Notes under the pieces: model-generated
Databases searched by the model: none
The model's input: the letters and a program-made list of their open reading frames with translations, nothing else
Told to the model about the DNA's origin: nothing
Translations under genes and position numbers: made by a program
Shown here: positions 35,375-63,299 of the stretch, one piece after another
How positions within the stretch are numbered: position 1 is the first letter of the stretch
Layout of the letters: every line of letters starts with the position of its first letter
Assembly (NCBI GenBank): GCA_018902385.1
Contig: JABSSW010000074.1
Coordinates: 105,394 to 169,393, forward strand
Length of the DNA stretch: 64,000 nucleotides
Reading direction: 5' to 3'
Origin: Physcia stellaris
Taxonomy: Eukaryota; Ascomycota; Lecanoromycetes; Caliciales; Physciaceae

Positions 35375-35700
35375 TGGTGGTGGAGGCGGAGGTTTTGTTT
35401 TGAGTGATGGGACGCTGGCAATTCGTTAAGTAGGTCAAGTACCTCCGTACTATGAGAGTAGATACGCGAGACGGCGAGGCTGAAATGGAAGAGCGGGCCG
35501 GTGCCGCCAAAGTACGCGCGCTGGAACTCCTCTAATAATACAGCCTAGACTACGGAGTACTACTATACCGAGGTGCACAATACTATAGAATCCTTGACAT
35601 CGAAAAATTTTAAATTTCTTTCCGCTCCGTCTCGTCCGCGAATCACAGAAAATCTCAATTATTGCGAAACAATTCGAACATAAATAGAATAATAGAAAAT
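35375..35700. other. Boundary between gene space and AT-rich block
   Basis: Promoter side of the COG7-like gene. CpC, CpT and GpG are normal up to about 35,590 and almost vanish after about 35,700, so the transition takes roughly 100 bases. No gene or target-site signature at the border itself. Confidence 0.6.
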
Positions 35701-36699
35701 TCATATAATTTATATATTTGTTGATTTGATATTTTAGTTATATAATGTTTGAATAGTTATTGAATATGTTATAATTTATTGAAAATAAAAAAATTTGAAT
35801 CACAAAAATTAAACTTATTTTAGCGTTTTTAGCGATCAATCGTGCGACTTGATTGATTGATTGATTGATTCATTAAACATTCGAAATTGATTTTAGAAAT
35901 TCGTTATGCGATTAAAAACAATCGAATCAATCATTTTCTAGAAAATTTTTGACTTTATACAAAATTATTTGTTTTTGATGTTTTGTTTTTTTATTCGAAC
36001 AAATCATTTCAAATATTTTTATTTTCATGATTTTTTTCATTTTCATTTTGTACGAAAATTTTCAATTTAATGCATTTTTTTGCAATTTTTATTTTTCGTC
36101 GTTCGTAATTGAAATTCGTAAATAATCAATGAATTCGAATTTTTCGATAAATATTGTCGTTTTTGTCAAATTGATCGAATTGATCAATACATTCATCAAT
36201 TTTATTTTTTTTTATTTCGTTTTTTTAATTTCGTCAATTCATAAATTTTTGCGAAATTTTTTCAGTTTTTGCATTCGAAAAGCACGTGTTTGATCGTTTG
36301 TTTGTTACACATGCATAAACACATAAAATTTTCGATTTGTTTTTTGTTGTATAAAAACGTTCGTAAATTTATTTTAATCGTGCGAAATTGTATTGCTATG
36401 ACGTTGAATTTTTTTGTGAATTTTTCGTGTAATCGCAATATTGTTTTATTGAATTTCGTTGTAATTTTGTACAGATTTTTTTTTATTGCAATTTTTTCAT
36501 TTTTGATTTCATTGTTGTTTTATCGATTTATTTATCACGATTTTGACGACGTTTTTCAGCATTTGCACGTTTGTTTGTTGTGTTTTGTGATCGATGTTCA
36601 TTTTTTTTTTCATTTTTTCAATTTTCATTTCGTGATTTGTTTGATCGCAACGTTTGATTGTTCGTTGTTTTCGATATCGATATAAATCGAAATTTAATG

Positions 36700-39070
36700 T
36701 AATTTTATTTCAATATATTTGTTTCGCAATTCGTTGATCAATCAAATTATTCATTTCATCAAATATTGATCGAAATTGATTTTTGAATTGTGCATCGTTT
36801 GAATTGTTATTTGATTGTCGATGCATATGACGAATTTCGATTTTTTTGCAAATTTTAAAAACGAATACAATCGTATGTTTATTGTTAAAACAATGTTATA
36901 TAATTCAACAAAATAAATCGTGTATGACGTAATAAATTTCAAATACGTTTTCGTTGTAAATAATTTCGTTTTTGCAAATATCGTTGTTGCATTCATTTTA
37001 TCGTTAATGTCGTTTTCGTTTGTGTATATGTAATTGATCGAATTCGTTTTTAATTGTATTTTGTGATATTTTTCGATTTTTTTTTTGTTTTTTATGATAC
37101 GTGTAATTGACGATTTTCATCACGACGATACGACAAAAAATAAAATTTTTTTCATATCGTGTGTTTTGATGCTCGTTTTTTTTTTCGAATTTATTCATTA
37201 ATTTTTTCAATAAATTAACGTTTTTCGATTTTTTGATGAAACGATCGCGTATAATCGTGTCGTATGTTGAATTTGTTATCAATTTTATTGCAAACGTATT
37301 GATGAATTTGTTCAAACGTAAATGCATGAATAATGAATTGATTTCGATGTTAAACGTTTTTTCGAAATCGTTTTGTATATTTTCGTTATGATTTTTTCGA
37401 TTTGATATTGAACGTTCGTTAATTTTTTCATTATTTTTTTGTTGTAATTTTTTTTTTCGTCGACGTGTATCATATCGAACATGCGTATGTAAATTGTAAA
37501 ACGAAAATCGTTTGCATCATTTGTTTCATTTTCGAAAATTTAATATTTCATGTAATGTCGTCAAAATTGCGTAATATTTTTATAAATTTCAATGTTTTCG
37601 TTTTGTTTTGATTGATTTGTGTTTTTCAATTAAATTTTTCGTTCATTATGACGTTCAAATATTTCATTTTTTTGTTTGTTTTGATTTTTTGATTGAATTC
37701 AAAAATAATATCGATTCGATGACGTTTGTTTTTTTTTCTTCGACTGAAATAAATGAATTGATATTTGAAAAATGCAAATTTCATTTCATGTTTCAATGTT
37801 CACGATACGCAAATTTTTTCGTGTGTTTTAATTATGATATCGTTGCGTTTTTCGACAATGTAATTTTTCGTCAGCATTTTTACATCGTCGACGAATTCGT
37901 TCGTTGAAATATTTTTTTTTTTCAAAACTTTCAATAAAAATACGTTGTAAAAAAAAAAAAATCAATAACATCGATGAATTTTGTGAAATTTCTATGAATA
38001 TTTTGAGTCATTCGATATCGTATTCGTTCGTTTTCAATATTGTCATTTTATTGAACAAAAAAAAATCAATATATCGTATCAGTTTCTCGTTTAAACGTTT
38101 CATTTTGAAATTGTGTAACAATTTTAAACGCGCTATATTGTCGAAAACGTTCATCACGTCGAAAAACATGATCACGATTATCAATTTTTTGTTTCATGTC
38201 GAATGTATTCGTTTCATCATGTAATGTAATGCGTGTTTCGTAAACACGATTTTTTTGATTTCGAAATGTGTGCGTGACAACAAATCGTGTTTTTTCGTCA
38301 AAAAATTGATTCGTTTGATCAATATGAATTTCATGAACTTGTTTATAATATTGAATAAAATTATTGATTTGTACGAAATCGTCATTGAATAAATATTTTT
38401 GTTTGATTTACGTAATGCGATCGTGATCGATTTTCGAAAATGTTTCGAACAATAATTTTCGTTCAAATTGACGTTGTATATACGTTGCAAATGTGATACG
38501 ATAATGTCATTTATTCATTTTCATATTTTATTGATTATGTCGTCGTCGTTTGAAATTTTGTTCGAATTTTGTTTGATTATGATTTTCGTCATTTCGTAAA
38601 ATTGTATGTTTTTTAATTTCAAATTTTGATTGTAAATGATTTTTGTATGTCGATTAAAACAATCGTAAACGACGAAAAAAAAATTTTTCAACGATATGAA
38701 TGTTTTTTATTGAATCAATTTCGAACAACATAAATGAATGATCGTGTAAAATCGACAAACAATTTTTTTGAAATTCGATTTTTAATTTATTTGTATGTTT
38801 TTTACATGTTGTTTGATGTATCACATTTTTTTTCGATTTTTTTCTGTATTGTGTTTTCATGATTTTAGAAATTACGTAATTCAAACGATTTTTTACTTTT
38901 TGTATGATTTTCACAAATTTTCGATTTTGTCGTTGTTTTGATATTTTTTTGATCGATTTGATCGTTTTCGATGTTTATTTGCATTTTTCGATGAATTTTA
39001 ATTTCGCGTAAACGTTCGATTTGTTAATCGAAATAATTGTTTCGATAATTGTTTGAATGATTTTTATTAA
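36700..39070 (-). mobile_element. LINE retrotransposon, RT and 3' part (Tad/jockey-like), mutated
   Basis: Minus-strand non-LTR element. Pre-RT helical region at 38914-38654. RT core at 38490-38194 with IALRKSNKNIYSMTISYKSI and LLSRTHFEIKK, then DVMNVFDNI (catalytic block A) just below 38,194, then FVDD (block C) at about 37,875. The C-terminal part at 37327-37004 has MHLRLNKFINTFAIKLITN, typical of the region after the RNase H-like domain. The frame is broken by TGA at expected Trp codons (38194-38196; 37800-37802). The 5' endonuclease half continues at 45552-46105, past a Gypsy insertion. Confidence 0.7.
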
Positions 39071-39075
39071 TTTTT

Positions 39076-39370
39076 TGTAAAACATTCAAAATTCAAATCG
39101 ACATAAAATATGATCGAATTTCGATAAAATCGAAATATGCATTATGATTATTTGCAAAACAAACATCGAATTCGAAAAAATGTTATTTGCATTTTTTTGT
39201 ATAACAACAAACAACAAGTCGAATGATTTGCAATTGAAATTTTTTATTTTTTTTATTCGTATATTTGTATATAACGAGCAAATAATGATTAAAATTTTTG
39301 ATTTTTTAAAAATTAATTTAATTATCAATCAAAAATTATACATTTTTGATGTCACATTTCGTATTTTACA
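39076..39370 (+). repeat. 5' LTR of Gypsy-1
   Basis: 295 bp, TG...CA ends with terminal inverted TGTAAAA/TTTTACA. Differs from the 3' LTR at about 15 positions plus one single-base indel by my reading. All substitutions are transitions: about eight in CpA/TpG and seven in CpT/ApG context. Confidence 0.88.
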
Positions 39371-39771
39371 TTTTAATTTTTATCATAATCATCAAATTAA
39401 CATTATTCGTGTATATAACACATCAAATCAACAACATGTTTTTTTTTTCACGAACATTAATGAATCGATTTTTGATTTTTCAAAATCAAACGTTATTTCG
39501 CAAAAATATCGAACATACATTTAACAACAAATTGTTCGATATGAAACATTACGCAATCGAATCATTTCATCAATTTTCAAAAAAAAATCATTTTACATCA
39601 AAATAATGAGCGACAAATCAAATTTATTCGCAAAAAACAATTACAAAAAATGAATTCAATACGTTTGAAAAATGAAAAATCAATTCGACATGAATCAAAC
39701 AAACGAATATGTCGATAATTCGAACAAAATCAAATTTTTTTTTGTCGTCATTTTTTTGAAAAAAAAATTTA

Positions 39772-40440
39772 ATGTTCAATTGTTGTGAAATGTTAAAATC
39801 AAAAACAATTCAAATAAAAAATATACATGAAAAAAATATGTTGACTTTCTCAAAAAAAACATTCAAAAAATCTTCAATAAAAAAAGAAAACAATTTTCAA
39901 AAATATAAAAATTATACACAACGAATCAATCAATCAATAAAAAATTACGATGTTCATCGTTTTGTTTTCGTTGCGAATTTGCATTCGATCATGAAATTTT
40001 TATTTGCAATAAAATTACAGAATTTCATTTTGAATTTCATTCAGAATAATCAAAATTTTTTCGCAAAACAAAATATCGAAAACAACAAAAAAAAAATTTT
40101 GAAACGTTTCAAATGTCGAAAAAATAACGAACGCAAAAAACAACGCAATGCAAACAAAAATAAATTTAAAAACAACTATAACAAACGCAAAAAAGACGAA
40201 AAAATTTCGACGAAAAAAAAAACAACAATCAATTTCGATTCAACAAAAATCGAAAAAAAAAAAACGATAAAAAATTCAAAATTGATAATTTTAATCAAGA
40301 ATCAATCAAATTCAAAAAATTATGACGTTGAATCAAAAACGAATTCAAAAATATAATCGACAACAATAAATGCAAAAATTGCGATAAATCAAATTGTATT
40401 TTCAAAAATTGTAAAAATAAAAAATCGAAAAAACATACAT
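39772..40440 (+). pseudogene. Gypsy-1 gag remnant with zinc-knuckle-like motif
   Basis: A lysine/asparagine-rich frame (39772-40356) followed, after a stop, by CKNCDKSNCIFKNC at about 40371-40412. The spacing CX2CX4CX4C is that of a nucleocapsid knuckle, with Cys where His is usual. The position before the protease fits gag. Mutation has replaced most residues, so the frame itself is only a remnant. Confidence 0.5.
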
Positions 40441-40489
40441 GAAAAATAACATTCGATTCGAAATCAAAAAAATAATCGATTTGATGATT

Positions 40490-40905
40490 TTCAATCAAAT
40501 TGACACAATGAAAAATTCTATATTGAATGACGAAATTGATTTTAATTTTGACGAATCGTTCACGATCGATATCGAAATCAAAAACGTCAAACGTCGTCGA
40601 AAAAAACTTCGCATAATTAAATGCAAAAAAACAATAATCAAAATAAACAAAAAATCAAACGAAAAAAACAAACTAAAGTTCGAAACAATCATGAATTCAA
40701 AAACAAAAATCAATTTGATAAATAATATTTTTGTTAAACAATTCGAATTAAAATCATTCAACGTGTTTAATTGCGAAACAATGATTATCGATAATCATTT
40801 TTTCAAAATTTATGACGTTTATTTCGTGCAATTCGAAATACAAAACGAAAACGATGTGAATCGTTTTTTCAATGATAATTTTCTAGAAACGAATTTGACA
40901 TGAAA
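40490..40905 (+). pseudogene. Gypsy-1 aspartic protease remnant
   Basis: The frame contains FETIMNSKTKINLINNIFVKQF, aligning with the retropepsin active-site region (I/V-D-S-G-A-T-x-N-L-I). The catalytic Asp-Ser-Gly is changed to Asn-Ser-Lys, as expected from G-to-A mutation. It lies between gag and RT. Confidence 0.55.
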
Positions 40906-41085
40906 TATAACGTTAAGTTTATCGTGAATGCAATTATCAAAAACACAAATAAATTGAAAAATCGACAAAATCGAATCGTGATCATTGATTGTAAAATCAA
41001 TTTTTTTCATCGTAAATCGTATCGAAAAAATCGAATCAAAAAAATTAATCAACGTTGTCGTTGATGACAAAAAACAAATTTTGTT

Positions 41086-42360
41086 ATGTTCGTACGAATT
41101 TTTCATGACGAAAAAAAAAACATGAATAACGTACACATCGAGCGACGAACACAAATTAATTCGATTTTTGCGAAAATGAAAAATAAATCAAATATCAAAA
41201 TCACAATATTCGAAGTTTTGAAAGAATTCGCTGATCTGACAGATAAAAACAAAACATACGAATTATCTGATCACGAATCAAACGATCATGTTATTGATTT
41301 GAAATCAAACAAGAAATTTTTACGATTTCATTTATTCATTGTCAAAAAACGAATTCAAAATATTACGAATTTATTTGAACAAACATTTCAAAAACGATTT
41401 CATCAAATTTTTCATTTTTTTTCAGTCGAAACATCAATTCTGTTCGTCAAAAAAAAAAACGAAACTCTGAAATTATATGTGAATTACAAAGACTTGAATT
41501 TCTTGACGATAAAAAATAAATATTTTTTGTCGTTAATCGATGAAAATCTAAATCGTTTGAACAAAATTCGCATTTATACAAATCTCGATATAATAGCAAC
41601 ATACAATAAATTGCGTATCAAAAAAAAAACGAATGAAAAACGACGTTCAAAACACGATATGAACATTTTGAATATATCGTTTTATTTTTCGATTTTATTA
41701 ATGCATCTGCGACGTTTCAGAATTTTGTCAATAAAATTCTGATCGAACGATTCGATCTGATTGTCATAATCTATTTGAACGATATAATCATATATTTCAT
41801 AAACGAAAAATAACACATCGAAAACGTCAAATGAATGCTAAATCGTTTACGAAAACACAAATTTTTCATCGATATGAAAAAGTGTAAATTTTCAAAAACA
41901 ACATTGATTTTTAAATTTCGTTGTATTTTCAAAAAAAATACAAATGCAAAAAAATAAAATCGATGTTATACAAAAATGATCGACGTTCAAAAACGTGTCA
42001 AAAATTTTGAAATTTTTTGAATTGTGCAATTTCTATAAACGATTCATCAAAAATTTCAATAAATTGACATTATTTTTAATTTCAATGTTAAAAAAATCAA
42101 CAAAATTTCATAAAAAAAAAATCAAACGAAAACGTAATTCGAACAAAAATCGAAACAAAAATCACAACAAAAAACGATTGTCGAATGATTTTTTGATTTT
42201 CGAAATTTACGAAATTTTCAAACGTTTACGAAATGCATTTTTGAAAACATTTATTTTGCAACATTTCGATTCGATTAAATTCATACGTGTGAAAATCGAC
42301 GTTTCGAACAAAACAATAAATGAAATTTTTTGTCAATTCGACGATCAAAATCATTGACAT
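41086..42360 (+). pseudogene. Gypsy-1 reverse transcriptase / RNase H remnant
   Basis: RT blocks in order: EFADLTDKNKTYELSDHESNDH, ILFVKKKNETLKLYVNYKDL (SLRLCVDYRGL-like), KIRIYTNLDII (F-T-K-L-D-L), then YLNDIIIY (YLDD active site with D to N) at about 41770. VKxMLNRLRKHKFF follows with TGA at the Trp position. The 41995-42357 frame has LCNFYKRFIKNFNKL and an RNase H start (ILQHFDSIKFIRVKIDVS). Several stops and frameshifts; inactive. Confidence 0.8.
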
Positions 42361-42576
42361 TCGATAATTTATTTTTTCAAAAAATTGATTTCAACGAAAT
42401 GCAATTATGAAATTCACGACAAAAAATTTTTGATTATAATTTTCGCATTCAAACAATAACGTCATTATTTCGAAAAAACGAAAAAACAAATATTCGTTTT
42501 GACGAATTATCGAAATTTCAATCGTTTCATGATTACAACGAAATTATCATTTCGACAAATACGATGAACGCAAAAA

Positions 42577-44350
42577 TTGTTTCGTTACAATTTCGTCATC
42601 GATTATCGTTTTGACAACAAAAATTTAACGAACGATTTGTTTCGACGATTTGATCATATGATCACAATTGAAAAAAAAATTGAAAATAATCGTCAAATTT
42701 TGACGCGTTTGCGACAATTTTTGCAATCGTTTTCGAACGAATTTCAAATTTGCGTGAACGAAATGAAAACAACGATGTTCAAATTCGATAATAATGAAAA
42801 AAACAAATTTGCGAATGATTTTTTTGATTTTCAAAAATGTACATCAAACGTGATTATCGATGAATGAAAAATTTTAATATTGAATAATGCAACGATTTTT
42901 CAATCGATCAACGAAATATTTGCAAAAAAACATATTCACGAACATGATACAATATACGACGATAAAATCATTGACAATTTCGTCGAATTGATACGTTTAT
43001 TGTTAAATCAAAATTCATACGCGATTCAAATGAAACAAAAATTAATTATTTTTGATATGTCACATTCGCATTGACAAAACGAAAAAAAAATATTGTAACA
43101 CGACGATTGTTTATACGTTTCGTCAAATTTGAAAAAAAAATGTTATAAAAACGAATCATAACAATTTTTTCGTCGATCATTTCGAAATAAAACGTATTTT
43201 TGAATTGATACGAAAAAAATATTATTGATTTAATCAAAAACGAAACAATTTCGAAAAAAACGTCGAACACGATTCGAACATGCGAACACAAATAAAAAAA
43301 TATTGCGAAACATGTGCAATTTGCAAAAAAAACAAAACATTTCGTCACAAATCATATGAAAAGTTTTCGTTTTTTTTCTATATCGAAATTCAAATGAATT
43401 GATTTTACAATGAATTTCGTAACAAATTTTTCAAAAACAAAACATGAAATGAAACGACGTATGATGCAATATTCGTCGTGATAAATCGTTTGATCAAAAT
43501 GACACATTATATTTCAATCACGAAAACAATGATCGCAAAAAATCTCGTCGAAATCTTAATTCGAAAAATCATTAAATTTCATGATTTTTCGTCGTCGATA
43601 ACAACAAACAAAAATTCGATTTTTATCGTTAAATATCATGACGTTTTGTGTTATGCTTTGAAAATAAAATTGAAATTATTCACGACTTATCATTCGCAAA
43701 CAAATGATCAGACGAAACGACAAAACTCAATCATGAAACAATATTTCAGAATTTACGTCAATTTCGAGCAAAACGACTGAATGAAATTATTGTCGATGAT
43801 TGAATTTGTTTATAACAATAATAAACATGCGTTCACGCAAATGTCATCGTTTAAAACGATGCAAAAATACACGTTCAAAATGTTTTTCGAAAATTCTGCA
43901 AATTTTAAAGTTAAATTCAAATCTGTTAAAAAACATGTCGAAAAATTGATCGAACTGATGAAAATACTGAAAATCAATTTAATTTACGCTCAAAAACAAC
44001 AAATCAAATACAAAAATGCAAAAATCAAATTAATGAAATTCGACGTAAATAATTACGTCAACGTCAACGTCAAAAATATTCGTATCAAACGCAACAAAAA
44101 ATTGAAATGAAAATTTTTCGAATTATTCAAAGTATTGAATACAATAAAAAATCAAACATATCGCATAAATATATTCAAACGTTGACGAATTCACAATGTT
44201 TTTCACGTTTCGTTGTTCGAAAAAATCATATTTAAAAAAAAAAAAAAAATTTCGTTAAAATTCACGTATCAATCAAATGACATCGACATCGAAAAAAACG
44301 AAAAATTCATCAATGAAAAATATTGAATCGAAATCATTTTAAACAACAAA
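42577..44350 (+). pseudogene. Gypsy-1 connection and integrase remnant
   Basis: YNFVIDYRFDNKNLTNDLFRR marks the end of RNase H. The integrase core is seen in 43478-43780: KMTHYISITKTMIAKNLVEI, then TTYHSQTNDQTKRQNSIMKQY, the catalytic Q-T-D-G-Q-x-E-R block with G and E replaced. The next frame (43781-44110) has IEFVYNNNKHAFTQMSSFK. RIHNVFHVSLFEK in the DNA-binding C-terminus follows at about 44187. TGA codons at 43778, 44108 and 44183 stand where Trp is conserved. Confidence 0.82.
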
Positions 44351-45069
44351 ATTTACAAAAAAAAAACAAATTTCGAACAAATCATATAACGAATCAAAAT
44401 TCTATTATTTCGTTCAATGAAAAAATTACGAAAAACGTATTTGAAAGTTCGTGTCAATAATCAAACATTTTAAAAATATGTTCAAAAAATTTCATATGAA
44501 AAATTCGAAAAAAAACGATATCAATAAATTTACGAATCGTCGACGCGTTCGACGTCAAATAAATGTAATTTTCACGATAAAATCGTTGACAATTTGATCA
44601 CGATACGAAATCAACATTTCACATTTGATTCGATGTTATTTACTGTCTAAAATTTACGACGCATGAAGAATTGAATCGTGTCAAAAACATTTTCAAAAAT
44701 TGTTGTTCGATTTGACTGAACGTTGAATATGAATGTGAAATATGATGTTGAATGCAACGATAAAAATATCGAAATTTGATATGTCAATTGCGATCGCGAT
44801 TATTCGACGTTTATTTCGTTTAACAATTTGCAATAACATATCGACTTGATATACGAAAACAAAAAAATGAAATATGCAAAAAAATTCGAATTCGATTTCG
44901 TTGTCAACAAATCAATTGTCAATCATCATATCGAAAATTGTGAATTGTACGAAATCAAATTATCGATATTGAAAGCAACAAACAATAAAATCATCAAATC
45001 ATGCTTTTTTTGAATCATTCAAAAAAATGTTTTTTCAAATTTTTAACGCAAATTGATTGTGAATTGCGA

Positions 45070-45160
45070 AAAATATTCGATGCGAAAATCACGATCACAA
45101 TGATTTTTCAAATCAACGATTTTCGATGCGAAAATCACGATCACAATGATTTTTCAAATC
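45070..45160 (+). repeat. Tandem duplication of ~50 bp near the Gypsy-1 3' end
   Basis: CGATGCGAAAATCACGATCACAATGATTTTTCAAATCAA occurs twice in a row, without differences over the core. The lack of differences in a strongly mutated element implies it arose late, after most mutation. Confidence 0.7.
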
Positions 45161-45250
45161 AAAAAATATTCAAATTTAAAAATTTCTGTTACAAAACAAA
45201 TGAAAGAATTTTGATCATTTCAAAAATTTCGATGTTAAAAAGAAAACGCA

Positions 45251-45546
45251 TGTAAAACATTCAAAATTCAAATCGACATAAAATATGATCGAATTTCGAT
45301 AAAGTCGAAATATACATCATGATCACTTGCAAAACAAATATCGAATTCGAAAAAATGTTGTTTGCATTTTTTTGTACAACAACAAACAACAAATCGAATG
45401 ATTTGCAATTGAAATTTTTTATTCTTTTTATTCGTACATTTGTATATAGCGAGCAAATAATGATTAAAATTTTTGATTTTTTAAAAATTAATCTAATTAT
45501 CAATCAGAAAATTATACATTTTTGATGTTACATTTCGTATTTTACA
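45251..45546 (+). repeat. 3' LTR of Gypsy-1
   Basis: 296 bp copy of 39076-39370 in direct orientation. It keeps slightly more C and G than the 5' copy. Confidence 0.88.
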
Positions 45547-45551
45547 TTTTT

Positions 45552-46105
45552 AATTTAATCGTCGATTTTTTTTTGTTTGATTATTGTGCATGTCGTTGTT
45601 GAAAATGAACGTTTCGTTATTCGTTATTTTCGTTTGCAATTTTTCGCGTAATATATCGATATTTGTTTTCGTTCAAATTTTTGTAATTTTCGACGTGATC
45701 GTTCTTGTACGCAAATTGAATATCGTTTTAATTAAACGATAATTCGAATGATTGTTCATGTTTTCGTCGATATCAATTTCGATTATGTTGTTTCGAAACA
45801 ACGATATTGCGTATGTGAAATCGATCGTGTTTTCGTTCGTGTGTTTATTTCATGTAATTAATTCGATCGATATGATTTTTTTTAATTTATATTTTTTCAT
45901 CGTGATTATGAATTCGTATGCGTTCGCGTTTGTTTTCACATGTGATTTTTTCAATTGAAATAATGCAAATTAAAATTCTTTACAACGACGTGTTTTTCGT
46001 TGATTTTTTTTTGCATCGCGTTTTTAAAATTGAATATCGCGTTGAGATTTTCGCTGTTTTTGTATAAATTATACATGTTGTGAATGTTGATAATTTTGTC
46101 GTTCG
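45552..46105 (-). mobile_element. LINE endonuclease half, displaced by a nested Gypsy element
   Basis: Reading on the minus strand from 46105, an INIHNMY segment is followed by KHVVVKNFNLHYFN and a TGA. This matches the VVGDFNLHHP-W block of LINE AP-endonucleases, with the Trp turned into a stop at about 45951. Further down, decayed frames resemble the link between endonuclease and RT. The same strand, and the adjacency to both Gypsy-1 borders, suggest it is the upstream half of the LINE at 36700-39070. It is itself cut at 46106 by another LTR. Confidence 0.55.
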
Positions 46106-46348
46106 TGTTACGAACATGTTTGACAGATAAATCTAACAAATAGATAATTGATATGATAAATGATTAGACAAATATGTTTGAATCGAATTATGTTTTAATT
46201 CTTTGACGAAATTAACGTGATTTGAAACTTGACGTTCAACATTGTTTACAATTTCATCATTTTGTATTTATTTGTTTCTGAAAAGACTTATTGTTTTCGT
46301 CTAATTAATCAATAATACGTTTATTCAAACACGATTCATGATATTACA
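46106..46348 (+). repeat. LTR of Gypsy-2 family (copy A) with adjoining leader
   Basis: 243 bp beginning TGTTACGAACATGT and ending ATATTACA, matched by 56227-56468. Similarity between the two loci continues 3' through the leader to about 46806/56946, so both are 5' ends of plus-strand elements. After about 46806 copy A diverges into unrelated sequence, so it is truncated or interrupted. It abuts the LINE endonuclease remnant. Confidence 0.75.
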
Positions 46349-46960
46349 ATAAGTTTTTCAATTTTATCGCTCGTCGTGATACGCGAACGTTCAAAAATAA
46401 AATTTCAAATCGATCAAATTCTTTTGACGAAACAAACGACGAAAAATTTTTCTGACGAGACACTTGACGAAAATCGTGAAATAACAAATCGAATTTTCAC
46501 GCAAACGACGATAAAAAACGACAAAAAAACGAAAATTGATTCGATTAATTTTTTTTCTTTTTATTATTTTTCAATTTTTCATTTTCATTATGATTCGAAA
46601 TCATTTCGAAACAACTTTTTTCGAATCATTTATTTCGATGAAACAACGTTTCAAAACGTTACGTTTCAATATTTTGAATCGTATTTTCAATGAAATCAAA
46701 TGACAATTTTTCGACGAAAATTTCGTCAGCAATTTAAACGTCGTCGATTTGTTTCAACGATCGAATTCAAAAAGTGAAAAATAATGAAATCATTCATTTT
46801 CTGAATATTTGTAATGAGACGAAGTCGATCAAACGAACGCTAAAACGTTGTGAATCTAATTGTCGCATTTCGTTTATATACTCGAAGTTTCAAACTTCTT
46901 TCTGTTTTTTAACAATTAATTCTATTATGTGTTTAAATTTATTCGAAATCAATTAATTTA
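46349..46960 (+). other. Gypsy-2 leader (copy A) and a less mutated patch
   Basis: 46349-46806 matches 56469-56946. The following 150 bases (46806-46960) keep clearly more CpT and ApG words (for example AAACTTCTTTCTG) than the surrounding block. This suggests unique or late-arriving sequence that escaped the mutation process. No gene is visible in it. Confidence 0.5.
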
Positions 46961-49900
46961 TTATTCGACATTCTAATCACGCAATTTACATTTTTACAGT
47001 TTTAATTGCTTTACATCAAAAATTGCTCGATTAAAAATGTTCAATTCAACAAATGCGTTTCGTCGTCGCGAAACTCGTTCGCAAATTCGTGATCGTGCGA
47101 TCGTAAAATTGCATCACAATCAAACATCATTTCATCAAACAATTTTTTTTATGCTTTTTTTTTATCAATCGAAATTGATTGTTTGATGATTCAATTTGAA
47201 AATTTGATAAAAACAATGATTTTTCGATTTTGATAATGTCGACGTTTCAATAAAACATTTCAATTTTCGAATTTCTGATTTCAAATGTTGATCAATTTTT
47301 CAATTCAACATTTGTTATAATTCTAGTCAAAATGAGACACAACGAAAAAATGATTTTGTTTCGTTGTCGTAAAATAACGATGTCGTTGTGTTTGATTTTG
47401 TTTCGATTCAAACGTGATTTTCAAACAAATGAAAATGCGTATCAAAATGTTGAAATTTGAATCAAAATTCAATGATTTTAAAATATTTTGATCAAAAAAA
47501 ACGAAACGTGATCGAAATCGTCGTCGTCGTCGCAACAACGATCGATCAATATGAAAATTCGTTTTCGCATATCAAAAAAACGAATCGCACGATCAAAAAT
47601 TTCAAACACGCAAAAATGTGAAAATTGAAACAATTTGAAAAGTTGATTGCGTGATTGCGAAAAAAATATATCGTTTTCAAATTTTCAAACAAAAAAATGA
47701 AAACATTTGATCGACGTCGTTTTTGATAACGACGTAAAAAAAAAATCAATGACGTAATTATGTTGATGTTGTTTTGAAAAACAAACATGAAAACAATATA
47801 AAAATTTTTGTTGACGTTGTTTTTCAATTCGATAATTCGTATCATGAAACGATTATTTTTGAAAATGTCGAACAATTGTTTCGACGAACATTTGCGTTTC
47901 GATATTTAGTTAAATTTGTGAAACAAATTTGAAACGTCACGTTTCGAACGAGAAACGACAAAAAAAATTGTTGATCAAAATTCATGATTTTTCATTCGCA
48001 TCAAGTGTGTAAAAATATTCAAAATCATCGAAAATCGATTTTTATTTCGAAAAATTAATCGTCAATTTTTGATTGCGAAGCATTGTTCGTTGACGATGAT
48101 ATTTTAAATAAATCGTCGAACAAAAAAGCAAAACAAAATAGTGAAAATGATCAAAAAAATCACGAAAATGACAATGACGATGACAAAAATTGTCAAAAAA
48201 ATTTCGCGTAACAGATTTGTTGAGTTTGACAACGGAAAAAAAAAATCAAAATCAATTTTGAAAAAAATCGCAACAAAATCGAAAAAAAAAAAAAAAAAAA
48301 AATCGAATTTTCAAAATCAAAATTTCGCATTTTCAAAATTTTATTTGTTGAAAATTTATCGACAAATCGAATCATATAACAAATGATTTTGCGTGCGAGA
48401 AATATAAAAATTCAAAAAAAAAATCAAAATCAAAATCAATCGTCGAAAAAAAAACGAATTTGATGTTTGTCGTTGAAACATTGAAAATAAATTTAAAACG
48501 AAATATTCAATTTCGTGTTTTGATAATCACGTTATCAATCAAAACATTTTTGTTACGCAAACAGAAAATAAACGACAATTATTTGTTTGATTGATTTTGA
48601 TGTCGAGACGAATTTTATATCACAAATTTTTGTCAAACAAAAATTGTTTGAATTCAAAAAAATTGTTAAACAACATGTAAAAGATTGTTGACGATCATTT
48701 GATTCAAATGTTAAAATTATGAAAACGTGCATATCATGACACGAAATAATGAAAAACATGTAAAAAAACAAAATGTTGATTTTTGAAGCGATTGACATTG
48801 CGTGAATACGACATGATTTTTGAATATTCATGATTGAATGTTGTCGATTTTGACATTCGTTAACAAAATCGTCGCTGATTATATCGTGATGATGATTAAA
48901 AAATTCAAACAAATTTCAATCGATTTTGTTTTGCGAAAAAATTCATTGAAAACTTCATTCATTTCGTTGATTGTCAAAATCGTTTTTTTTTGTTTAATTT
49001 TCTTGAACAATCAGATATCGATAATTTTTCGAAAAAAAAAACAATTTCGTATCAAATGATTGAAATTTTCACAACGATAACAATTTTTATCGATGTCATT
49101 TTTATCATAAAAATTTTCATGATCATTTTGATCGACGACGAAATAATTTTTTTTTGACGTTGAACATGTTATCACGAATTACGATTTTGACAATTGATGT
49201 TTTGAAAATAATTCGTGAAATATTTTTAAATGTCGAATTTTCGAAACGTTTTCAAAAAAATGTAATTTTTGATTCATTTTTTCAATCAATTTTTTTTAAA
49301 TTTTCGATTGTTTCGAATCGATCGTTATTAACAATGATTCGCTGTAATTTTTGAATTTTTCGCGAAATTCATCGATCAAATTTTGTTTTGAATAATGAAA
49401 CAATTGATTGAACAACAACAAAAAATTCGAAAAAAATTTCGAAAACGTTGATTGATACGCATCGATCAAAAAATTTTGAACTTATTGCGTATGTTTGTTT
49501 TTTGTTTTTTTTCAACATAAATCAAAAATCAAAACATCAAAAATCATTTGAAAATTTTTGAAATAAACAATGTCGATTTTACGTCGAACGAAAAAATGTT
49601 CGCGAATTTTGTTTTCGATTCAATTGATTTTTATTTTTGTCGTTATTTTGATATATTCGTCGACGAAATGATCAACATTAACAATTGAATTTGTTTTTGA
49701 TCAATTGCTTTCAAATTTCGAAAAAGATTTGAAATGTTTTTTGAATTTGAAAAAAAAAATTTTGACATTTTTATTTTTTTTATCGATGAAAGTGTCGAAA
49801 TTGAAAATTGACGTTGTTGTGATTTTTAAAAAATTTATCTCGTTTTGCAATTTTATATTACGATTGATCAATTTAACATTTTCGTTTTTAAATTTGTTAT

Positions 49901-51180: not shown

Positions 51181-51189
51181 AAAATCAAA

Positions 51190-51490
51190 TGAATTTCGAC
51201 GTTTTACGTTTCAACGTCAACGTCAAAAATTTCGTATCAAACGTTATTCAAGAATTTTTGAAATGAAATTTTTTTCGAATCATTCAAAATATTTTTTACA
51301 ATAAAAATCAAAATATCGACAATAGATTTATTCAAACGTCGAAAATTTTTTTTTTTTTATTTTTCGTTTATCATAAAAAATTATTTTAAAAAAAGTTTCG
51401 TTAAATTCGTTGATATAATATTTTTCGAATAAAAATCGACATCGAAATAACGAAAAATGCGTTATTTGAATGACAATTTTAAACGATAAA
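51190..51490 (+). mobile_element. Decayed Gypsy-1-like integrase C-terminal fragment
   Basis: Nucleotide similarity to Gypsy-1 at about 44045-44330: the shared word GTCAACGTCAACGTCAAAAAT, then TCGTATCAAACG, TGAAATGAAA, ATTCAAA and a long A-run before TTTCGTTAAA, in the same order. Many small deletions relative to Gypsy-1 show it is an older copy. The rest of the element was not recognisable. Confidence 0.55.
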
Positions 51491-52541: not shown

Positions 52542-54498
52542 TTAACGTTCAATTTTTAAATTTTTTTTTATTCGTATAACGCGCGACGTTTTACGAAAAT
52601 AATCGAACATTTGCAATTTTTCAATTTTTAAAAAAATTTTTGAAATGAATTTTCGTACGAATTTTTTTGTCACACGTTTTAACAATTTTTTTCGACGCAT
52701 TGTTTGACAATATCGCGACAATTTCGTTTTGAAAAAAAATTTTTTTGAAAATTTTTCGTCAAAATTTTTTTCGCATTGTTTCGATAATGTTGAAAACGCG
52801 ATATTCGATAAATTGCGTTGTTTCGAAATTTGTTTTGCAATGTAAACAAACAAATTAATTTTTTGTTTTCGAATTTTTTCGTAATTTGAACGTCGAAATG
52901 ATTCGTTTGTCGAATTAAAAAAATTTTCATTTTTGTATTTGATTTCGAAATCATATTGATTTAACAATCGTTTCATTTGATTTGTCGTTTGTTCAAAAAC
53001 GTAATAAACATGAAATATTTAAATTGTTATAATTGTGTTACGATGATCGTAAATTGATTATTTTTTAAATCAACAACGTTATTTTTGAAATTTTTAACGA
53101 TACGAAATAAAATTTGAAAAATCATACGTTGAAATATTTGATTTCGACGAAAATATAATTTTTTTGAATAAAAACGACGAATTGTTGTTTGCAAATTTCG
53201 ATTATAAATTTTTAAACGTTTCGAAATCATTTTTGCGATAACGCAATATTGTCGAAATTCGTTTTTCGATGTTGTTGATTATTTTTTCGAAATTTATTAA
53301 TTATTTTTGAATAAAAAATCGTGAAAAAATTACATTTTTTCGAAAATTTTGTTTCAAAAAATTTTCATCGATTTGTTTTTCGTTTTTGAAAATTTTTCAA
53401 AATTGAAAAATGAACGCGACACGAAAACGTATTTTACGAAAATTTTCGTTGTGATTTCAAAAAATTTGTTTTCGTTTTTGTTCAAAAATCGATAATGATT
53501 TTTTTGTTTTTCGATTATTATGCAAATATTTTTTTATAATCGATGATAATTTCAAAAATTTCGATGAAATTTTCGATATATCGATTTAAAATTGCGAAAA
53601 AAAATATAATCAAAAAAACGTTTAAAAATCGTTTTTGACGATGTTTTTTTTTGTTCGAAAATTTTAAATTAAAATCGTGACAATTACGTACGTATCAACG
53701 AACGATTTTGTATTGAATCAATAATTCACGACATAAAAAATTTTTTCATGCGATTAAATTCAAAAAATTTAACGTTAAAAATTCATGAATTTTTTTTGAA
53801 AAAAATTAACGATTAAAAAAATATCATCGTGAGCATCGAAATCGATTTTTGTAATATAAAATATCGTTTTTTTTAACAATACGTAAATACGCGATTTTTC
53901 ACGAAAATGAAATTTTGATTGAACGTTTCACGATATATTTTGCAATCATCGTTTGTTTTGTTAACGACGAAAATTCGTTCGTAAATTGATTCGTCAAATT
54001 TTCGATAACAAAATTTCGAATCATTTTTTTTGAAATAAAAAATATTTGTTTTTATATTGATGTTTCGTTATTATCGAAAATTTTGAATTCGACATACGAA
54101 TTAAAATGTCGATTTTGACGTTTTGAATTTCAAATTGAAATTGAATGAATGTTAAATTTTGATAAAATTTTTCAACAAATTTGACGAAAAATATTTTTTT
54201 GAAATTTCGAAAATTTTCAAATTTTCGACATTAAATCAATGAAAATTTTAATGTTTTTCAATGTTTTCGAATTTCGAACGTCAATGTTTCAAACAACGAA
54301 TCATAATCATATTTTTTTGTTATAAATTTCGTAATTGTATTCGATTGAAATCATTTTCGATTGTAAAAAACAACAAAATGTAAAAATTTTTTCGTCATCG
54401 ATTTTATATTGCAAAATTATTTTCGACAAAAATATCAACGAAAATAATTTAAAAAATCGATTTTTAAAATGATTTTTTGATTTTATCGTAAATGACAA
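52542..54498 (-). mobile_element. Minus-strand Gypsy fragment (RNase H), interrupted
   Basis: At 54498-54307 the frame ends MISIEYNYEIYNKKI, the conserved end of the Gypsy RNase H domain (compare 60,410-60,460). At 52976-52542 another frame has NQYDFEIKYKNEN followed by FRRSNYEKI, the segment that normally follows within about 60 codons. Here they are about 1.3 kb apart, so one or more insertions probably separate them, or they come from two elements. Confidence 0.5.
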
Positions 54499-56226
54499 AA
54501 TATGAAAATTTCGATCGAATCGTTTTTTTTGAATAAATTTAAATTTTTTTTTGTTTTCGTAATTTATTCGAATTTTACGAATTTTTTGATTATTCGAATG
54601 AAAATTTTAATTTTTTTCGAAAAATCACGAATGAAACGTCGATAAAAATTAACGAAATTCACGAAAATTTGTTTTTTTTTGAAATTCATAAATCGTGTTC
54701 AATTAACGATAATTTGTATTTTTTTTGAATTCATGAACGAAAAAATTCATCGAAAATATAAAGTTTAAAAAAATCATTTTTTTAAAAAAAAAAAAATTTG
54801 CATTTTTCAATATTCATTTGTAAATCAATTTTTTTGAATTTTTTCAATATTGTTTGAACGTAATATATTTTTTTTAATTTGTTGTAAATGAATATTCATT
54901 CAAATAAATTTGACAAAATTCGTTCAAAAAATTGAACAAAAAATCAAAAAAAATGTAATTTGAAAATTGAAATTTTTTTGAAAAATTGATTAATTCAAAA
55001 AATAATATTCGATATTTATACGATTTGAAAAAATGACGAACGTGATAAATTTTTCATTTTTTTTTTATTTATTCGAAATTTATTGAAAAATTTTGATATG
55101 ATATTCAATTTGATCAAATATTTGCAATTTTGAATTTTGATCAAAATTTTTTCGATCGAAAAAAATAAAATATCGATTACGTTTTTTCGTGATATGATTA
55201 AATCGACGATAATTCACACACAAACGTAATTAATTATTGAATTTAATCGCAAATAAAACAAATAAAATATATATCGTTTAATTAAATACGATAAATTTTT
55301 TTGCAAATTTTTTTTTAAATTTTTTTTAAATTTTTTAAATTTAAATTCGAATAAAAAATACATTCGATTGCGAAATAAAAAATTGTTATCGTTTCAAAAT
55401 TCAATTTTATGATCGTATAATTTATGAAAAAATAATTTGATAATTTTTTGAAAATTGAATATTTTTGATAAAAAATAAAAATATTTTGACATTTTTTATT
55501 ATGATGCGTTCGAATATCGATTTAATTTATTCATATTTCAAAAAAATTTTAATTATGACGATAATTTTCAACAATTCAAAATTCGTTTGTAATGTTTTGA
55601 ACGCGAAATCGATTTGATTAATCGTAATGAAAAAAACATTGAATTTTTTGTTTTCGATTTTTGACATCGATCAACAAAAAAATTACATTAATCATTGCGA
55701 TATTCATCGAATCGTTAAAATTCAATTTTGAAAACAACGTAAATTTTGATCGTTGTTTTTTCGTTTTTTATCGTTTATTGCGTTAATTTTTCAGTTTTTT
55801 TTTGACGAATGTCGTTTTCGTAATCGTCGTAATATCAATTTTTGAATTATTTGATTGATTGTTGACAATTTGTCGTCGTTATCGATTTTTGAATGAATTG
55901 AACATTCGAAACATTTCGAATCGAATACATCAAATTCGTTTTCAATAAAAAAAATGATTTGATTTTGAAACGTGATAAAATAATATATCGAAATTTAAAT
56001 TTGTTATGTGTTTTGTAACGTTTTTTTCGATAATTTTGTATCGCGACGTTAATTAAATACATTTTATCGACGATTTGATTTGAAAATTTTTAAACGACGA
56101 ATTTGCATCGTTTGATTGAATATGTTGTCGTAATCGATTCATTAATTTGAACGATTTAAAAATCAATTTATTGTAAATTATGTTCAATATAATTTCATGT
56201 TTGTTGTCATTTTTCAAAAATATTCA
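54499..56226. other. Unassigned AT-rich mutated DNA
   Basis: No recognisable domain on either strand. It would be the place for the RT of the minus-strand Gypsy fragment, but I could not align any RT block. Confidence 0.35.
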
Positions 56227-56468
56227 TGTTACGAGCATGTCTGACAAATAAATCTAACAAATAGATAATTGATATGATAAATGATTGAACAAATATGTCT
56301 AAATCGAATTATGTTTTAATTTTTTGACGAAATTAACGTGAATTGAAACTTGACGCTCGCACATTGTTTACAATTTTATCATTTTGTATTTATTTGTTTT
56401 TGCAAATTTATTGTTTTCGTTTAGCTAATCAATAATACGTTTATTCAAACACGATTCATGATATTACA
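56227..56468 (+). repeat. 5' LTR of Gypsy-2 (copy B)
   Basis: 242 bp, TGTTACGAGCATGT...ATATTACA, matched by 46106-46348 in direct orientation. Its differences from copy A are mostly transitions. Confidence 0.75.
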
Positions 56469-57040
56469 ATAAATTTTCAATTTTTATCGCTCGTCGTGAT
56501 ACGCAAACGTTCAAAAATAAAATTTCAAATCGATTAAGTTTTTTTTACGAGATAAACGACGAAAAAACTCTGTTGATCAAACAAACGATCAAAAAATTCT
56601 TTTAACGAAACATCAAACGAAAATCGTGAAATAACAAATCGAATTTTCACGCAATCGACGATAAAAAACGAAAATTGACTCGATTAATTTCTTTTTTTTT
56701 TATTATTTTCAATTTTTCATTTTCAGTTATGATTCGAAATCATCACGAAACAATTTTTTTCGAATTTTCTATTTCGATGAAATAACGTTTCAAAACGTTA
56801 CGTTTCAACGTGAATCGTATGTTGCATGAAATTAACGACAATTTTTTCGACGAGAATTTCGTTGATCAATTCAAACGTCGTCGATTTATATCAACGATCG
56901 AATTCATAAAAATGAAAAATAATGAAATTATTCATTTTTTGAATATCGTCATCATCAATCAATTGAAATGATAAATCAATCATAAAATCGTCGATTTTTT
57001 AAAAAAAATTGATCGATTACGCATCGATCGTGACAATTAT

Positions 57041-58100: not shown

Positions 58101-58219
58101 TCACAAACATCAAAAACGTCATTGACACAAAATGCAAATGTTTTATATAAATTTGATTGACGAATCGAGCGATTTTGAATCGAAAAATTAACAATTCACA
58201 TCAAAAACGCGATTGATGA

Positions 58220-58700
58220 ATGTTTAAAAAATTTTTTATTCACGATGATAATATGTTTGATTTTTTCATCAAACGATTTTTAATCATCAATTGTACGTTA
58301 TCATTCAACGATAATAAACATAAATTAAAAGTTTTAATAAATATTGATGCAATTGATTATGCATTCATTGATAAAAAAATCGCGCAATTTGTATGCAACA
58401 TGTTGAACATGAAATTTGTATTTTTATTGAAATCGAAATCATTGATTGAATTCGACGATCGTCAAATTTTTTCAATAATTCACGTCATATATTTTAAATT
58501 AACGATAAAGTTGCATTTCGAATTGATCGTTTTTTTGTTAATTATCGATTTGAATAATCATTCGATAATTTTAAAAAAATCGTGAATAAACAAACATGAA
58601 ATCATATTGAACATGATTTACGATAAATTGATTTTCAAATCGTTTAAATGCAATTATCATGACAATATATTCAATCAAATTGTTCAAATTCGACGTTTGA
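58220..58700 (+). pseudogene. Gypsy-2 aspartic protease remnant
   Basis: KVLINIDAIDYAFIDKKIAQ aligns with the retropepsin active-site loop (A-L-V-D-S-G-A-T-x-x-A-F-I-D). Asp-Ser-Gly has become Asn-Ile-Asp, so it is catalytically dead. ELIVFLLIIDLNNHSIIL follows, as in the strand before the flap partner (H-x-I-I-L-G). Confidence 0.65.
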
Positions 58701-59245
58701 AAATTTTCAAATCAAATCGTCGATGAATTGTATTTAATTGACGTCGTGATATCGTATTATCGCAAAAAAACAATTCGAAACATATAACAATAATAAAATT
58801 TCGATATATTATTTTATTTCGATTCAAAATCAAATTTTTATTTTTTACAATTGAAAACGAGTCAAATATATTCGATTCGAAATGTTTCGAATATTTAATT
58901 TCTTCGAACGTCGATGACGATGACGAATCGTCAATTATCGAATCAAATAATTCAAAAATTGATATCACGACGATTACGAAAACGACATTCGTCAAATTTT
59001 TTTTTAAAAAAACAACGTAATAAACGTTGAAAAATCAAAAAACAACAATTCGAATTTTTTTCATTTTCGAGATTGAATTCAAACGATTCAATAAATATCG
59101 CGATAATTGATACAATATTTTTTTGTTTGTTCGTCGATTTCAAAAATCGAAAACAAAAAATACAATTTTTTTTTATTACGATCAATCAAATCGATGTCGC
59201 GTTCAAAACATTGCGAACGAATTTTGAATTGTTGAAATTGTTGTC

Positions 59246-60720
59246 ATGATCAAAAAAATTTTGAAACACGAACAAATCAAATCGATTTTTGAACGTATAA
59301 TGAAAAAAATATCAAAATATTTCAAATATTTGTCAAAAATATTCGATTTTCAAAAAACAATTGAATTGTTATCGTATCGATTTTACGATCACAAAATCGA
59401 ATTTTTAAACGATAACAATACATTGTTTCGAAACAAAATATATTTTTTGTTCGAATTCAAATTTCAAAAATTCAAAAAATATTTGAAAAATAATTTTCAA
59501 AAAAATTTTATCGTATTCAATCAAATTGCATACGTTTCGTTCGTTTTATTTGCAATCAAATCAAATGATCAATTACGTTTGTGTGTGAATTATCGACGAT
59601 TTAATTACATCACAAAACGCAATCGATATTTTATTTTTTTGATCGAAACAATTTTAATTAAAATGCAAAATTGCAAATATTTGATCAAATTGAATATCAT
59701 ATCGATTTTCAACAAATTTCGAATGAATGAAAAAAATGAAAAATTTATCACGTTTGTTATTTTCATGAAATCGTACAAATATCGAATATTATTTTTCGAA
59801 TTGATCAACGAATTCGCAAATTGACAACATTACATGAACGATTTGTTATTCAATTTTTTGAACGATTTTTGTCAAATTTATTTAAATGATATTTTCATTT
59901 ACAACAAATTCAAAAAGAAACACATCGTTCACGTTCGTAAAATGTTGAAAAAATTCAAAAAAATCGAATGACAAATGAATATTGAAAAATGCGAATTTTT
60001 CAAAAAAATGACGTTTTTGAACGTCATATTATCGATAAATAATTTTCGCATGAATTCGAAAAAAATAAAAATCATTGTCAATTGAAAACGTTTTACGAAT
60101 TTGAAAAAAATACAAATTTTCGTGAATTTCGTCAATTTTTACAAACGATTCATTCGTGATTTTTTGAAAAAAATTCGAATTTTTATTCGAATAATCAAAA
60201 AATTTGTAAATTTTGAATGAATTGACGAAATCGAAAAAATTTTCAATTTTTTCAAAAAAACAATGACAAAAATTTTCATATTACGACATTACGATCGAAT
60301 CAAACAAATTATTTTGAAAATCGATTTTTTTGATTATGTCAACGCAAAAATATTGTTTCAATACAACGACGAAAAAATTTTGCATTTCGTTGTTTTTTAC
60401 AATCGCAACATGATTTCAATCGAATATAATTACGAAATTTATGACAAAAAATTATTAATCATTATTCGTTGTTTAAAACATTGACGTTTTGAATTCGAAA
60501 ACATTGAAAAATCGATCAAAATTTTCATCGATCACAAAAAATTGAAAATTTTCATGACGTCGAAAAAATTTATTTTTCGTCAAATTCGTTGAGCAATTTT
60601 TTTTTCGAAATTCAACATTGTTATTCAATTTCAATTCGAAATTCAAAACGTTAAAACAAATATTTTGATTCGTATGTTTGATTTTCGATTCAAAAACGAA
60701 ATTGATAAACGACATCAATA
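59246..60720 (+). pseudogene. Gypsy-2 reverse transcriptase / RNase H remnant
   Basis: RT blocks: YRFYDHKIEFLNDNNTLF, QLRLCVNYRRFNYITKRNRY, KYLIKLNIISIFNKFRM, then after a TGA YLNDIFIYNKF (YLDD with D to N) at about 59,880. The thumb/RNase H link reads NFVNFYKRFIRDFLKKI. RNase H has ILRHYDRIKQIILKIDFFDY and IEYNYEIYDKKLLIIIRCL. TGA codons at 60083, 60218, 60482 and 60590 all stand at positions where Trp is conserved in this family. Confidence 0.85.
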
Positions 60721-60733
60721 TCGAAAATAAATA

Positions 60734-61580
60734 TTGTTTATTTCAAAACAATTCGAAATTCACGCGATAAAATTTGACAAATTTATTTATGAGCGAATTT
60801 TGATCGTCAATAAAATTGACGATGATTGCACGACATATCGTGAAATCATCGAACAAAATTTCATTTCAATAAACAAAATCGATTTACGAAATTGCAATGA
60901 AAAAAACGATGTTTTATATCGAAATGATCGATTATGAATGTTTGTCGATGTTTTTTTATTCGTTGATTTTTTTCAAAAAAATTCACGAATTTTCGATTTC
61001 GAAACATTTAAATTTTAATCGTATAAAAAATTTTATACGTCGCGATTATTATTGATTCAATATGCGCAAATTCGTTCGTCGATACGTACGTAATTGTTAT
61101 GAATATTAACGAACGAAAATTTTCAAAAATTTTCAAAAATGAATTATTCATTTTTTGATTATTTTTTTGCAACGTTGAATCGACATATTTATAAATTTCA
61201 TTATCGAATTGTTCGATGTTCACGATCATAACGTCATTTGCACGATAATTGACAAATTTAATAAAAACGTCATTACGTATTTTGCATCGTCGACGACGAA
61301 AACATCAATGCGAAAATTACAATCAAAATATTTATTAATTACGTGTTTTATACGCATGAATTATTTTTTTCATAACGTCAAATCGAAAATTTCAATTTAT
61401 ATCGTTCGTTTGACAAACGTTTTGCAAAATTCTCGATATTAAATGTAAATTTTTTATCGTTTTTCATTCAGAAATCGATAAACAAATCGAAAAAAATCAA
61501 TTAAAATATCGAAAAACAATTGCGACAATATTACAATTACATGCAAAACGATTGAAACGTTTGATTATTCATGATTGAAT
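60734..61580 (+). pseudogene. Gypsy-2 integrase remnant, interrupted at 61580
   Basis: Begins with IDDDCTTYREIIEQNFI and RNDRLWMFVDVF (an upstream integrase segment). The core starts VHDHNVICTIIDKFNK (DVH-Y-N-A-I-x-x-I-x-D-K). The last visible part is LRQYYNYMQND, TGA, NV, TGA, LFMIEL, matching the Y-x-x-x-x-Q-D-D-W-x-x-W-L block with both Trp as TGA (61553 and 61562). Sequence similarity stops at 61580, where a new LTR starts. Confidence 0.75.
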
Positions 61581-63297: not shown

Positions 63298-63299
63298 CG

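Follow-up and report, generated by a model that had tools for sequence, protein, structure and literature searches.

The window analysed here, 64,000 nucleotides of contig JABSSW010000074.1 of the lichen-forming ascomycete Physcia stellaris, consists of an ordinary gene region followed by a block of nested, degenerate repeats in which cytosines preceding a pyrimidine (CpY, that is, CpC and CpT) are almost lacking (Table 1). We describe this block, the changes that separate its repeats from an unmutated relative elsewhere in the genome, and how far these changes can be ascribed to a process like repeat-induced point mutation (RIP).

Composition of the block and its neighbourhood

Positions 35,700–61,580 (25,881 bp, GC content 23.9%) contain neither a CpC nor more than a single GpG, where about 370 of each would be expected, and 127 CpT and 127 ApG are left. 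The block retains 1486 CpA, 1495 TpG and 1479 CpG, the last at an observed/expected ratio (o/e) of 3.99; the o/e of TpA is 0.41. The two longest CC/GG-free runs of the window, 12.6 and 13.4 kb, lie back to back at 35,636–61,647, and the sole CC or GG within these limits is the GG at 48,234. Per base, CpG is unaltered (0.057 in the block, 0.055 outside) and CpA is slightly lower (0.057 versus 0.067). Positions 1–35,699 have normal o/e values (CC 0.97, CT 1.08, CA 1.07, CG 0.88). These counts bear out the initial annotation of the window, which had described a depletion of CpC, CpT, GpG and ApG with survival of CpA, TpG and CpG. Its own count for 40,081–40,440 (30 CpA, 17 CpG, 1 CpT, 0 CpC) was exact, and the outcome that it had named as contrary, CpT and CpC near expectation, was looked for and not found.

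On the two usual RIP indices the block scores 0.44 (TpA/ApT) and 1.36 ((CpA+TpG)/(ApC+GpT)). Since the thresholds for RIP are > 0.89 and < 1.03, respectively (PMC3897900), the block would be classed as un-RIPed. Its composition was modelled in silico. When window 1–35,600 was stripped of all CpC and of 94% of its CpT, with both strands treated, the result had a GC content of 0.252 (block, 0.239) and a dinucleotide L1 distance to the block of 0.060; the eight alternatives, which included no change at all and conversion of CpA, CpG, CpA+CpT, CpH or all C, lay 0.34–0.82 away. Starting from an unmutated Ty3 stretch, the distance was 0.18 for CpY and 0.35–0.82 for the others.

To the right of the block, a 2,420-bp element that extends past the contig end has 9 CC and 5 GG but 124 CT and 115 AG. 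It is an intermediate state and lies outside the block of the initial annotation. A direct repeat of 128 bp (61,581–61,708 and 63,873–64,000) frames this element and probably represents its long terminal repeats (LTRs).

The genes of window 1–35,699 include what we take, from the translated frames, to be a mitochondrial seryl-tRNA synthetase and an ABC transporter, among others. Three short repeats were seen in the same region: a telomere-like CCCTAACCCTAA near 33,870 and a GACCCCTAACCCCT array at 15,354–15,389, both inside the contig, and a 12-bp tandem repeat (CACCGAATGCCT) within an open frame at 32,945–33,058.

Table 1. Features of the window and stretches used for polarised comparison (C-to-T changes; CpC counts of the last five rows are inflated, see text)
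Position	Strand	Feature	Basis or counts
1–35,636		Ordinary single-copy gene region, normal dinucleotides, internal control	Dinucleotide counts, open reading frames
35,637–61,580		CpY-depleted block: nested degenerate repeats, no CC, one GG (48,234), GC ~24%	Dinucleotide counts
39,076–45,556	+	Full-length hypermutated Ty3 retrotransposon; 306-bp LTRs at 39,076–39,379 and 45,251–45,556	LTRs and alignment to L031
41,068–41,739	+	Surviving open stretch, reverse transcriptase region, 224 residues without Pro, Gly, Trp	Open reading frames, protein search
46,102–46,808		Repeat, 88% identical after conversion to 56,223–56,946	Self-comparison
53,680–56,205		2.6-kb repeat, inverted copy at 58,589–61,097, 80% after conversion	Self-comparison
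61,581–64,000		Part of further repeat element, intermediate: CpC nearly gone, CpT kept	Counts; extends past contig end
31,200–31,750		Unmutated, in gene region; hypermutated relative in L021 (265 bp)	CpC 17/17, CpT 16/24, CpA 3/36, CpG 3/18
33,200–34,000		Unmutated, in gene region; hypermutated relative in L017 (~470 bp)	CpC 27/35, CpT 34/55, CpA 9/63, CpG 4/36
L022:700–2300		Unmutated or less mutated stretch	CpC 161/170, CpT 180/249, CpA 70/482, CpG 26/345
L022:8400–9100		Unmutated or less mutated stretch	CpC 7/7, CpT 14/20, CpA 2/24, CpG 4/20
L062		Unmutated or less mutated stretch	CpC 9/9, CpT 121/155, CpA 44/205, CpG 17/176

Direction, context and order of the changes

A DNA search of the genome with positions 40,000–41,200 returned at least 40 copies. 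Because 40 of 163 candidates were scored, copy numbers are lower bounds, and there may be unmutated copies other than the one recovered (L031). In 1.2 kb, L031 has a GC content of 0.456, 113 CC+GG and 156 CT+AG, versus 0–7 CC+GG in the other fetched copies. The existence of this unmutated relative of the block Ty3 allowed the changes to be polarised. Positions 1–5600 of L031 are a mutation-free Ty3 relative that directly adjoins hypermutated DNA; its reading frames are fragmented, and Pfam recognised RVT_1, RT RNase H, integrase zinc-binding and core, Tf2-1-like SH3 and chromo domains.

The alignment to L031 comprised 31 rows, after two duplicates (L001 and L033) and one match that was too short (L030) had been left out. 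Between L031 and the window copy, C had changed to T at 111 of 113 CpC and 144 of 156 CpT, compared with 9 of 140 CpA and 5 of 137 CpG. When all 30 other rows were pooled, a set that includes a second, more diverged subfamily, the changed fractions were 0.888 (CpC), 0.787 (CpT), 0.196 (CpA) and 0.132 (CpG). The 12 close copies gave 1234/1285, 1493/1767, 153/1574 and 94/1553 in the same order, and the 26 youngest 250-bp blocks gave 429/441, 669/788, 72/766 and 7/458. A/T sites had changed at 32 of 3314 positions (1.0%) in these youngest blocks. The loss of 97% of CpC at 1% A/T-site change distinguishes a burst from ordinary substitution. None of these four sets of counts was filtered for low CC.

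Conversion of CpY to TpY in silico on both sides raised the identity of the 5.6-kb L031 element to the mutated copies from 0.708 to 0.905 over 69,363 aligned sites, with a local maximum of 0.99; for positions 39,072–44,592 of the block (5.5 kb), identity to L031 after conversion was 93.8%. The same order, with CpC and CpT far above CpA and CpG, was seen in five more stretches that are themselves unmutated or less mutated and have mutated relatives (Table 1). The whole-Ty3 identity test and the five-stretch comparison kept only target stretches with ≤ 1% CC+GG, and the CpC figures of the latter are inflated by this filter.

The two strands of the element were altered alike, CpY having changed at 1208 of 1325 sites (0.912) on the top strand and at 1519 of 1727 (0.880) on the bottom strand; such C:G to T:A transitions on both strands are a general property of RIP. 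In the close copies, the changed fraction ranged from 0.94 to 0.99 for CpC and from 0.78 to 0.88 for CpT according to the 5' base, and from 0.81 to 0.88 for CpT according to the base after the dinucleotide. Neither had a notable effect, and a dependence on the 5' base or the second 3' base was rejected. It is the 3' neighbour that decides the target, as in C5-methyltransferase-based RIP.

The order in which targets were used was read from 507 windows of 500 bp, taken from the window, L017–L032 and L054–L062, those with N being left out. Thirty-two of them had no CC+GG yet more than 20 CT+AG, and a single one showed the reverse (> 20 CC+GG, ≤ 20 CT+AG). CpC is exhausted before CpT, and the order of targets is CpC > CpT >> CpA > CpG. 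CA+TG never fell below 39 and averaged 60.3 where CC was gone versus 67.2 where CC was normal; CpG stayed at about 55 per window in most CC classes (50–59; one class, 44). TA rose from 21.8 to 29.9 per window as CC was lost, which is compatible with a weak CpA component. The o/e values of CpC and CpT were 0.07 and 0.87 in the right-end element, 0.10 and 0.83 in L054, and 0.28 and 0.96 in L062. Seven other relatives had a CC o/e of 0.00 (six) or 0.03 (one), with CT at 0.14–0.44.

The LTRs of an element are identical at insertion. The two copies framing the right-end element differ at 6 of 128 sites, of which five are CpT and one is CpC, with no difference elsewhere. The saturated Ty3 LTRs differ at six CpT, eight CpA and no CpG, besides two ragged-end mismatches. 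Together with the alignments polarised by the unmutated relative, the LTR pair of the right-end element shows the 3'-pyrimidine preference suggested by the initial annotation; the contrary outcome, family alignments with mostly CpA-to-TpA transitions, was tested for and not found. The initial annotation had also offered two processes as an alternative. In the sequence examined, classical CpA RIP is not the main process, a weak CpA component is present, and CpC and CpT may be divided between two enzymes.

Explanations and candidate enzymes

Our preferred reading, to which we assign a probability of about 0.8, is that repeats of P. stellaris were hit by a RIP-like burst of C-to-T mutation on both strands, with the target order given above. 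The comparisons above show the direction of change, its contexts, its action on both strands, the weak influence of other neighbours, the near saturation of CpC and a rate far above ordinary substitution. The agent, by inference, would be a RID-class cytosine methyltransferase that acts during the sexual cycle, alone or together with a DIM-2-like enzyme, and the changed target would reflect a changed enzyme. Single-copy DNA is spared, the gene region being normal and likewise the flanks of the loci examined, all of which were selected for carrying these repeats; in the sequence examined, mutation is confined to repeats, as in RIP generally, with one repeat copy (L031) unmutated. For this sequence, the CA+TG counts, the 72 of 766 CpA changed in the youngest blocks, and the indices of 0.44 and 1.36 rule out classical CpA RIP as the main process. 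CpG methylation decay or a Masc2-type CpG mutation was rejected on the 7 of 458 CpG changed and on the unaltered CpG density. The CpT-type RIP of Magnaporthe and Botrytis does not fit either, CpC having changed more than CpT, and CpA hardly at all.

Several observations weigh against this reading. CpA accounts for 8 of the 14 transitions between the Ty3 LTRs; it has changed by 9.4% in the young blocks and by 3%–24% in the close copies, the two most AT-rich of which show 19–24%. The data indicate that CpA is also mutated, weakly and late. L031, a Ty3 copy that has escaped, is free of the mutation although its neighbouring DNA is mutated. The right-end element and L054 have approximately 94% identity, with no concentration of the differences at CpY; since the two are ~ 6% diverged, youth alone does not account for the CpC-only state. 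An element that had previously lost its CpC may have gone on to multiply. Finally, the first candidate enzyme, described below, is not the sole RID in the genome, and its clade has not been matched to signature-bearing species.

A PF00145 search of the genome, of the kind that the initial annotation had proposed, did find homologues of RID and DIM-2, again as in RIP generally: two RID-class genes and one DIM-2-like gene. Both kinds of enzyme have a part in the RIP of Neurospora (PMC11969663). The DIM-2-like gene, named from its domain and length, is a frame of 1118 residues on contig C3. RID-B (P0001; 932 residues, contig C5) belongs to a 20-row group common to many Lecanoromycetes, and RID-A (a 515-residue model, contig C6, L013) to a 17-row group whose named members are Heterodermia and Physcia. 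Both carry the catalytic PCQ motif. RID-A is 36% identical to DmtA of Histoplasma and 38% to that of A. flavus at 97–98% coverage, among the 120 of 2240 matches listed. By PF00145, PCQ and near full-length homology to DmtA, RID-A and RID-B are predicted RID/DmtA-class methyltransferases. RID-A, DmtA-type and on a long branch, is our first candidate for the changed specificity, with RID-B as an alternative or partner.

In a tree of 59 rows chosen from 114 + 120 matches listed (the latter being the best 120 of 2240), the RID-A clade has a stem of 0.46 changes/site, is sister to Eurotiomycete DmtA (99/93), and lies apart from the short RIDs of Blastenia, Caloplaca, Psora and Lecanora. The grouping with Eurotiomycete DmtA may reflect an old paralogue, a transfer or a long-branch effect. 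A comparison made without four distant rows gave seven nearly fixed differences of the RID-A clade: F246L, H302Q, D309F, F317L, H344N, F355L and T444A. The loop that follows PCQ (catalytic Cys 295) contains positions 302 and 309, and position 444 is found shortly before a conserved C-terminal motif; it is a guess that these seven changes set target specificity. A sequence search of the PDB found no RID structure, only DNMT1, HhaI, HaeIII, DNMT2 and their kin. We suggest tentatively, and at rather less than even odds, that a DmtA-type RID, which among the matches listed occurs only in a clade with Physcia and Heterodermia and bears the nearly fixed changes of that clade, swapped CpA for CpY in a natural switch of RIP target.

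Alternatively, two enzymes might divide the work, one RID-class enzyme taking CpC and another (RID-B or DIM-2) taking CpT. The genome does hold two RID-class genes and a DIM-2-like gene. Elements with CpC gone and CpT nearly intact (the right-end element, L054 and L062) and the 32 CC-free windows with > 20 CT+AG, against one of the reverse kind, would follow naturally. However, one enzyme with a strong preference for CpC over CpT gives the same order, and no copy was seen that had lost CpT and kept CpC, as two independent enzymes would sometimes yield. We regard this division of labour as possible but doubtful.

Slow decay, in which methylated non-CG cytosines in heterochromatin deaminate over time without a burst, is improbable. 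The affected DNA does consist of old, silenced repeats, and a DIM-2-like methyltransferase is present, but by the time A/T sites had changed by only 1.0%, 97% of CpC and 85% of CpT had been lost. Moreover, CpG, the usual site of methylation decay, has changed by only 1.5% in the young blocks.

Little more can be said for a DNA cytidine deaminase, for example of the fungal OTT_1508 group, that edits retroelement cDNA or single strands; we consider it similarly improbable. The genome contains three PF14441 (OTT_1508-type) genes, on contigs C38, C34 and C17, and eight PF00383 matches; a search with PF08210 gave no match, a control being equally silent. Yet both element strands were changed equally (0.912 and 0.880), unlike the result of APOBEC-like editing of a single cDNA strand, and repeats not shown to be retroelements were mutated as well. 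In known AID/APOBEC deaminases the 5' base sets the target; here it has little effect and the 3' base decides, as for C5 methyltransferases.

An artefact of base-calling or assembly, or a natural AT bias, can be practically dismissed: the published assembly does combine Nanopore and Illumina reads (PMC7513301), but genes on the same contig are normal, some 30 copies each carry thousands of context-specific changes relative to the unmutated relative, composition bias cannot produce 0 CC with CpG at four times expectation, and the signature recurs in proteins from other assemblies. A protein search with the open stretch 41,068–41,739 returned 57 homologues, 37 of which lack Pro and Gly, although the composition of the query itself favours such matches. 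Seven more have 0.5–1.6% Pro+Gly and 13 (P0125, P0160–P0171) several percent. In the first 45 homologues, codons for His, Gln, Met and Arg are retained, although they would be lost under CpA or CpG mutation. Some Trp occurs in about one-third of these 45, among them P0124, P0132 and P0133, which are without Gly or Pro; we suspect that the gene caller translated TGA as Trp in these AT-rich fungal contigs. It is by proteins that the spread beyond P. stellaris was followed, and one DNA scan of viral_contigs for relatives found none.

The choice of target has consequences for coding capacity. Over 2,419 codons of four open reading frames of the window, full CpA conversion would create 6.0 new stops per 100 codons and change 26% of residues, whereas full CpY conversion would create 1.9 and change 43%; CpT conversion alone gives no stops. 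If the target switch is real, Pro, Gly, Trp and Leu-CTN codons are destroyed rather than stops made from CAA and CAG, and screens that rely on CpA indices all miss the lineage; the usual RIP tests would class this ruined mobile DNA as untouched. An opposite choice at CpC and CpA, near saturation, amounts to a natural specificity mutant. It bears on the way in which RIP chooses a cytosine and on the role of RID itself in fixing the context, and P. stellaris supplies a short list of relevant genes and residues that could be swapped into Neurospora.

Comparison with known RIP systems

According to a survey of 1,239 fungi, RIP-like defences share a preference for CpA; in the accessible part of that survey, its 130 strong species fall into four classes, and Lecanoromycetes are not among them (PMC12543289). 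The accessible text of the P. stellaris genome paper reports no RIP analysis; it gives a genome GC content of 43.32% (PMC7513301), which, with 50% in genes and ~ 24.5% in the blocks, suggests that such blocks make up about one-quarter of the genome. We found no report of a CpC-first, CpA-sparing RIP in the openly readable literature, supplements being outside this scope, a limited negative. The initial annotation's suggestion that this could be an undescribed variant of repeat-directed defence agrees with the literature found, with the limit that CpT-biased RIP is already published. By its target choice, the mutation in P. stellaris appears to be new among RIP-like processes, as well as real, strong and well polarised.

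Like the RIP of Neurospora crassa and other Pezizomycotina, it consists of near-saturating, repeat-confined C:G to T:A changes on both strands and leaves sharp-edged AT-rich blocks in a genome with RID- and DIM-2-like genes. Unlike in Neurospora, the targets are CpC and CpT, not CpA, and CpA and CpG are largely spared. CpT-to-TpT is a main change here, as in the CpT-biased RIP reported for Magnaporthe oryzae, Botrytis cinerea and Sclerotinia sclerotiorum (PMC4352252). CpT changes were also described by alignment in Neurospora and Stagonospora (PMC2621366) and in RIP-capable fungi (PMC7882544), so that in print CpT is not only the minor context that the initial annotation took it to be. In the CpT-biased fungi, however, CpT is changed together with CpA, and Table 2 of that report lists no CpC target (PMC4352252), whereas here CpC comes first and CpA is spared.

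Strong AT-rich compartments of the RIP type are shared with two lichen-forming fungi, Cladonia rangiformis, in which RIP was defined by GC content with no dinucleotide named in the accessible text (PMC12542154), and Endocarpon pusillum, whose indices are classical (1.47 and 0.70; PMC3897900), unlike the 0.44 and 1.36 of the P. stellaris block. In Microbotryum and other Basidiomycota, RIP-like mutation is directed at CpG (TpCpG) (PMC4352252). P. stellaris resembles Microbotryum in a repeat-directed C-to-T change outside CpA, and differs from it in that CpG is the most protected context (7/458).

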